A DNA stretch of 64,000 nt from an uncultured Acidobacteriota bacterium. Lineage in GTDB: Bacteria > Acidobacteriota > Terriglobia > Bryobacterales > Bryobacteraceae. The position numbers and the translations under genes are program-made. Where the stretch lies: positions 1 through 64,000 of the forward strand of contig CADEFM010000013.1 of the NCBI GenBank assembly GCA_902826605.1, read 5' to 3'. The notes under the pieces are model-generated. The model was not told where the DNA came from. It ran no database searches and was given only the letters and a program-made list of their open reading frames with translations. The first letter of the stretch is position 1, and each line of letters starts with the position of its first letter. Positions 5,464 to 6,174 of this stretch are shown here, in pieces.

Positions 5464-5540
5464 GGGGACGTAGTTCAGTTGGTTAGAACGCCGGCCTGTC
5501 ACGTCGGAGGTCGCGGGTTCGAACCCCGTCGTCCCCGCCA
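5464..5540 (+). tRNA. tRNA-Asp (GTC)
   Basis: Complete cloverleaf: acceptor GGGGACG / CGTCCCC, TA, D-arm GTTCAGTTGGTTAGAAC, anticodon stem-loop with GTC in CTGTCAC, T-arm GCGGGTTCGAACCCCGT, discriminator G and encoded CCA. The 3' end is duplicated 0.6 kb downstream (see repeat entries), the pattern left by tRNA-targeting integrases. Confidence 0.97.
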
Positions 5541-5542
5541 TT
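5513..5542 (+). repeat. att-like repeat, copy 1 (3' end of tRNA-Asp)
   Basis: Thirty bases covering the T-arm, acceptor 3' strand and CCA of tRNA-Asp. They match 6145-6174 at 28 of 30 positions in direct orientation. One mismatch (G here, A there) would break an acceptor base pair in the distal copy, as expected for a non-functional remnant. Confidence 0.8.
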
Positions 5543-5758
5543 TCTAACCCTTAGTTTGCTAGCAGATATGGGTGCCTTCCTGCAAACATTTGCTAACACC
5601 CTGGGGATGTCGACCATTGCGTCGCTCTGCGGCTGCCCGTTTGACCGCTGGCAACGTGAGAGTAGCTTAGCAGCGTGACGTTCTGATCCGCATGTCCCCA
5701 ACTGACTCACCACCCTGGGGTCCGTGATAAGATTATGTGGCCCAGAAAGGGGCCTTCC

Positions 5759-6142
5759 ATGAAGCGACTAATCCTAGGAACTCTGCTCTTGACCTTTGCG
5801 AGCCCCGGATTCGCCAAGACCCACAAGGATATGTTCGAGGTACCTTGTGAGAAGCTATGGGCCGCATTTAAGGATACACTTCGGAACTCAGGCAAGTACG
5901 GCATCATCGGCATTGACAACAGCGAAATGACGGCATCGTACAACATCGGCGGCTTCTTGACCGGAAAACGCATTAACTCCGTCGTACTGAATGCCAAAGG
6001 GAATAGCTGCGAAATGCAGACCCAAACATCCTTCAGTGGGTTAATCAATCACGACTATGACGATATGAAGAAGCGAGTACAGCAATCACTCGATAACCTC
6101 AAATCATCCCCACCGGAAACGGCGGCGACTCCGGGAAAGTAG
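5759..6142 (+). CDS. Small secreted protein, unknown, within tRNA-Asp att scar
   Basis: A 127-residue protein with a clear signal peptide (MKRLILGTLLLTFASPGFA). The mature part has two Cys and reads as a small alpha/beta fold (FEVPCEKLWAAFKDTL ... MTASYNIGGFLTGKRINSVVLN), somewhat like short lipoprotein-type domains, with a Pro/Thr-rich tail. I do not recognise the family. The ATG at 5759 is preferred to one at 5735 because it starts the signal peptide. It is the only gene between tRNA-Asp and the second copy of the tRNA 3' end, so it may be cargo of a former integrative element; its bases look less GC-rich than the flanks. Confidence 0.65.
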   Translation: MKRLILGTLLLTFASPGFAKTHKDMFEVPCEKLWAAFKDTLRNSGKYGIIGIDNSEMTASYNIGGFLTGKRINSVVLNAKGNSCEMQTQTSFSGLINHDYDDMKKRVQQSLDNLKSSPPETAATPGK

Positions 6143-6144
6143 CA

Positions 6145-6174
6145 GCGGTTTCGAACCCCGTCATCCCCGCCATT
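6145..6174 (+). repeat. att-like repeat, copy 2 (tRNA-Asp 3' fragment)
   Basis: Direct copy of 5513-5542 with two mismatches, beginning two bases after the stop codon of the small secreted protein gene. No tRNA body precedes it, so it is a fragment and not a second tRNA. Read as the distal attachment site of a tRNA-targeted insertion. Confidence 0.75.

Follow-up and report, generated by a model that had tools for sequence, protein, structure and literature searches.

The closest described systems are the islands collected by the Islander algorithm (PMC4383910). Their signature, as given in that report, is a regenerated tDNA with the displaced 3' fragment located downstream in the same orientation. 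The filters described there demand an integrase ORF and a length of 2–200 kb, and the T-arm region is among the usual crossover subsites (1836 of the 3919 islands). The locus studied here lies in a window of 64,000 nucleotides (the whole stretch of DNA that was analysed) and is similar to this class in having a regenerated tDNA, a displaced 3' fragment, an integrase end against the tDNA and a crossover region in the T arm. It differs in that the integrase ORF that Islander requires is represented within the tRNA-Asp insert only by a 3' stub (5605–5714), and in that the length is 0.63 kb (632 bases from CCA to CCA), below the 2-kb limit. Because of the lack of an integrase ORF and the length under 2 kb, this locus would not pass the Islander algorithm with the filters as reported. 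It represents a well-known kind in a decayed state, an ordinary genome fossil. Scars of this size are likely under-counted due to the length and integrase filters of the standard island finder, and they can make a single passenger gene look native.

The tRNA-Asp (GTC) gene occupies positions 5464–5540 of the plus strand (ARAGORN; Rfam RF00005, 71.6 bits). The preliminary description had pointed out that the last 30 bases at this end are repeated at 6145–6174, and this was confirmed: positions 5513–5542 and 6145–6174 agree in 28 of 30 bases in direct orientation. The repeat includes the T arm and the acceptor end, the encoded CCA and two further bases, the tRNA part being 28 bases long. The second-ranking 30-base match to it within the window reaches 20 of 30, and the chance expectation of a 28/30 match is approximately 1.9e-9 (64 kb, both strands, base composition of the window). 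A search of the entire own genome with tRNA-Asp as the query yielded the gene and the copy at 6145–6174, and hence one full copy. Thus, the window contains a tDNA followed downstream by a fragment of the cognate 3' end in the same orientation, as in islands of the Islander type. The gene at 5464–5540 is the regenerated target, with its 3' end as the left attachment site (attL side), and the plus-strand copy at 6145–6174 is the displaced 3' end, that is, the right attachment site (attR).

Between these boundaries the order of features is an attachment arm, an integrase stub, a cargo gene and then the displaced tRNA end. The cargo gene, further referred to as P127, is located at 5759–6142 on the plus strand and codes for a predicted secreted protein of 127 aa (ORF, 11-member family alignment and AlphaFold2 model). 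With its stop codon at 6140–6142 it is indeed the small secreted-protein gene that had been placed directly before the repeat. Base composition, the measurement of which had also been proposed, sets the insert apart: its G+C content is 51.8% versus the window mean of 58.1%, which falls into the lowest 1% of 604-bp pieces of the window.

The arm and the stub were identified by comparison with a congener, G208. In this genome an intact tyrosine integrase of 448 aa (L046:4843–6189, minus strand) is encoded convergently to tRNA-Asp (4671–4747) at a distance of about 95 bp. It contains PF00589 (E=4.6e-25) as well as arm-binding and SAM-like domains (Pfam). Positions 5541–5714 of the window can be aligned, with the order and orientation kept, to the left end of the element in G208. 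The score is 95, whereas 500 shuffles reached at most 52 and the 626 other window pieces at most 58. An integrase trace is thus present at the place and in the orientation expected of an island remnant. Considered alone, the arm half (5541–5608, strand not assigned) has a local alignment score of 56 against the shuffle maximum of 35, with G208 ranking first among the 17 other tRNA-Asp loci, and the coding-end half (5605–5714, minus strand) has a nucleotide score of 76 against 45 (1000 shuffles). Among the 17 other tRNA-Asp loci compared, G208 was the sole clear match (score 95, next 42); L060 was left out of the 18-locus comparison because it had too little downstream sequence. The arm following tRNA-Asp in G206 resembles the G208 arm by eye.

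In the tblastn search with the G208 integrase as the query, the stub was found at 5697–5605 (minus strand; 50% over 32 columns), with E=2e-5 for the 634-base stretch and E=0.017 for the whole window. Its minus-strand translation, GHADQNVTLLSYSH, matches the C-terminal box of the G208 integrase. Just upstream of the stub, VVSQLG reads in another frame, indicating by eye one frameshift, which would fit a dead gene; the stub is truncated and non-functional. Pfam produced no match on this very short piece, and no intact integrase homolog was found in the window with a panel of ten integrases. The statement of the preliminary description that there is no integrase therefore holds for an intact gene, but a 3' stub of about 100 bp adjoins the tRNA gene on the minus strand; being too short and decayed, it was missed both as an ORF and by Pfam. 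To summarize the likeness, the G208 element (L046) has the same tRNA target, a similar arm and an integrase whose 3' end aligns with the window stub. The difference is that its integrase is intact and that the contig stops before the right side of the element.

Eighteen other tRNA-Asp loci were also read, 17 in congeners and one in a genome belonging to the same order. The 5' sides of the gene are pairwise alike in nine loci (G024, G170, G186, G200, G201, G203, G206, G208 and G209), and the 3' sides are alike in two pairs only, G186–G200 and G203–G209 (3' flanks shorter than 300 bases were omitted from the 3'-side comparison). Repeat-bounded inserts were found in two of the 18 other loci, 2,637 bases long in G139 and 10,301 bases long in G119. 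Hence tRNA-Asp is an integration hot spot in the genus of the window. The displaced repeats in both G119 and G139 are about 46 bases long and extend from the anticodon loop on, whereas the window repeat begins in the T arm; therefore either another crossover subsite was used or trimming has shortened the right end.

The G119 insert (L045) is similar to the window locus in that it is bounded by tRNA-Asp and a displaced 3' end and has a C-terminal integrase stub beside the tRNA gene, a 94-aa piece with a PF00589 match below the curated cut-off (E=0.0089). It differs in its size of 10.3 kb, its large cargo and the longer repeat. Given the stubs in both G119 and the window, the reduction of an integrase to a stub at tRNA-Asp apparently happened more than once. 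The genus thus offers a decay series at tRNA-Asp: an intact integrase (G208), a stub with 10 kb of sequence (G119) and a stub with one gene (the window).

The cargo of the two larger inserts may be described briefly. The G119 insert (G119:C95, 6487–15888) encodes an RNase H/AAA_12 helicase of 1175 aa, an SMC-like ATPase of 949 aa, a calcineurin-like phosphoesterase (metallophosphatase) of 365 aa and an ARPP-1 protein, and has partial PADLOC matches to MkoA (E=2e-36) and mad3 (E=4e-18); it is possibly a defence island. The G139 insert (L044, G139:C91, 478–3099) contains an HTH_37/Gp49 toxin-antitoxin-like pair and two proteins of 270 and 252 aa belonging to no Pfam or PADLOC family, and no integrase was found in it.

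The 5' flank of the window tRNA-Asp, which encodes a CHRD-domain protein and a glutamine synthetase-like protein (glnA), is not common to any of the loci compared. As the 5' neighbourhood (1–5463) is unlike that of the nine loci, the tRNA-Asp locus has been rearranged in the lineage of the window. The ALDH gene to the right of the insert has orthologs in 10 of the 23 genus genomes, own included (E<=1e-120), and in none of the other nine congeners was a tRNA seen beside the ortholog within the flanking stretch inspected. Relatives of the CHRD protein are present in four other congeners, one of them near a tRNA-SeC call; no glnA or ALDH match was observed in the inspected flanks of these four. 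The comparison of the locus across related genomes, suggested in the preliminary description, thus revealed variable 3' sides and two larger bounded inserts. A strict empty or full-length version of the window site was not among them in the tRNA-Asp, ALDH and CHRD comparisons between congeners, since the 5' flank of tRNA-Asp in the window differs from all loci compared.

P127 itself starts with a segment resembling a signal peptide (by eye), and two cysteines, C30 and C84, are invariant in the family alignment. No NCBIfam family corresponds to it and no Pfam match exceeds the cut-off, the 11 members giving weak scattered matches with the best E of 0.022. The gene is found in 11 of the 200 family genomes and in 4 of the 396 phylum genomes (own included in both counts), and at nine loci in named genomes; a search of the 22 other congeners at E<=0.001 did not find it. 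No relatives were found in viral contigs. P127 differs from its relatives mainly at third codon positions (for L107, 0.25, 0.15 and 0.60 over the three positions), a bias that would be expected for purifying selection on the family.

The surroundings of the gene were considered at 18 distinct loci including the window. Records from the same contig (L108, L112, L113 and L114) were counted once, and the weak G613 match was dropped, as it did not reappear in the single-sequence search. Most of the 18 loci have no tRNA or integrase nearby (panel of ten integrases). At only one of the 17 other loci is the gene enclosed in an integrase island with bounding repeats, and P127 is therefore not exclusively an island gene. 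This case bears on a check named in the preliminary description, a search for the 127-residue protein in other islands. It is a relative in G063 (28% identity, E=6.5e-13) within an island of about 8.7 kb at tRNA-Arg. An intact integrase lies next to this tRNA gene, the tRNA end recurs as a 35/35 copy, and a Rep_1 replication protein (E=2e-74) is encoded in the island as well. The P127 family can thus travel in integrase elements. A second integrase comes after this island, and the region (L070, G063:C82, 5726–15752) is likely a tandem array of integrative elements.

Counting the window, a tRNA 3' end is followed by a P127 homolog within 0.5 kb at 3 of the 18 loci, the others being at tRNA-Pro and tRNA-Ser, which is at most suggestive. 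At the tRNA-Ser locus (L109) no repeat was found at the P127 relative. At the tRNA-Pro locus (L110, 9489–10390) the tRNA 3' end is duplicated (27/28) after 145 bp, and the P127 relative (57%) is situated just outside the repeat. This locus was considered as a second scar of the same kind and rejected, given the position of the relative outside the repeat and the failure to find an integrase stub. At yet another locus (L121, G295:C31, 8942–10029) the P127 relative is in two pieces about 0.74 kb apart.

In all probability, the 0.6-kb insert is the deletion remnant of an integrative element (genomic island) that targeted tRNA-Asp. A tyrosine integrase would have recombined the attP site of the element into the 3' end of tRNA-Asp, so that the copy of the 3' end carried by the element rebuilt the gene and the original end was displaced to 6145–6174. 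A single internal deletion may then have taken nearly the whole element, joining the last 30–40 or so codons of the integrase to the region upstream of the cargo gene at the right end and leaving P127 intact. This interpretation is supported by the variable 3' sides of tRNA-Asp together with the absence of P127 from the 22 other congeners. It is the first of two readings offered in the preliminary description, and the stub, the arm, the variable 3' sides and the congener distribution all speak for it, as do the direct repeat, the bounded inserts in G139 and G119, the low G+C of the insert and the P127 relative in the G063 island. Counting against it are the missing empty or full-length counterpart of this site, the weakness of the stub as a protein match, the T-arm start of the repeat, unlike that in G119 and G139, and the single island locus among the 17 others with P127.

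The second reading, a very small element moved in trans, gained no positive support. It assumes that an integrase encoded elsewhere transferred, in its present form, a minimal non-autonomous unit consisting of att sites, an integrase stub and one gene. Since the att sites and the arm are kept, a related integrase could in principle excise the unit, and G208 demonstrates an intact integrase gene at tRNA-Asp within the genus. Nevertheless, a search of 237 family genomes, among them the own one, gave no second copy of the left 205 bases, other matches there being at most 43 bases long, and in the own genome the G208 integrase matches nothing but a single broken gene, present as two pieces. Both observations favour a deletion remnant over movement in trans, as does the likeness of the stub and arm to the G208 element at the same tRNA. 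Besides, relatives of P127 are found in many different contexts with no stub. We therefore consider movement in trans improbable. Equally little weight is given to its extension, in which G208-type integrases act in trans on a minimal cassette of 0.63 kb and such units have repeatedly spread genes of the P127 family to tRNA 3' ends, as would then be seen at tRNA-Asp in the window, near tRNA-Pro and tRNA-Ser, and in the tRNA-Arg island. Even less credible is that slippage or gene conversion duplicated part of the tRNA-Asp 3' end beside an ordinary chromosomal gene, with no element involved: the shortness of the repeat, the mostly lone chromosomal P127 relatives and the lack of an intact integrase homolog in the window (panel of ten) would agree with it, but it leaves unexplained the arm and coding end that match the G208 integrase element at the same tRNA, the fragment is the 3' end and lies downstream with its orientation unchanged, as expected from integration, and the tRNA-Asp site holds other inserts in congeners.

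The structure of the surviving cargo protein was modelled with AlphaFold2 using 11 sequences (mean pLDDT 79.4). The model is superimposed on the BamC N-domain with Z 11.0 (95 residues, rmsd 2.6; VIA-align; Foldseek E 1.5e-5) and on Flpp3 with Z 10.9 (93 residues, rmsd 2.7). Accordingly modelled, P127 is predicted to adopt a helix-grip-like fold closest to these two proteins, a fold likeness that shows no function: the sequence identity to them is 8–14%, and many unrelated families in the match list have the same fold. Unlike BamC and Flpp3, P127 consists of one small domain that begins like a signal peptide and has the invariant C30 and C84. In the viral structure library one match to the model scored below E 0.001, a 'lipoprotein' of an uncultured phage.
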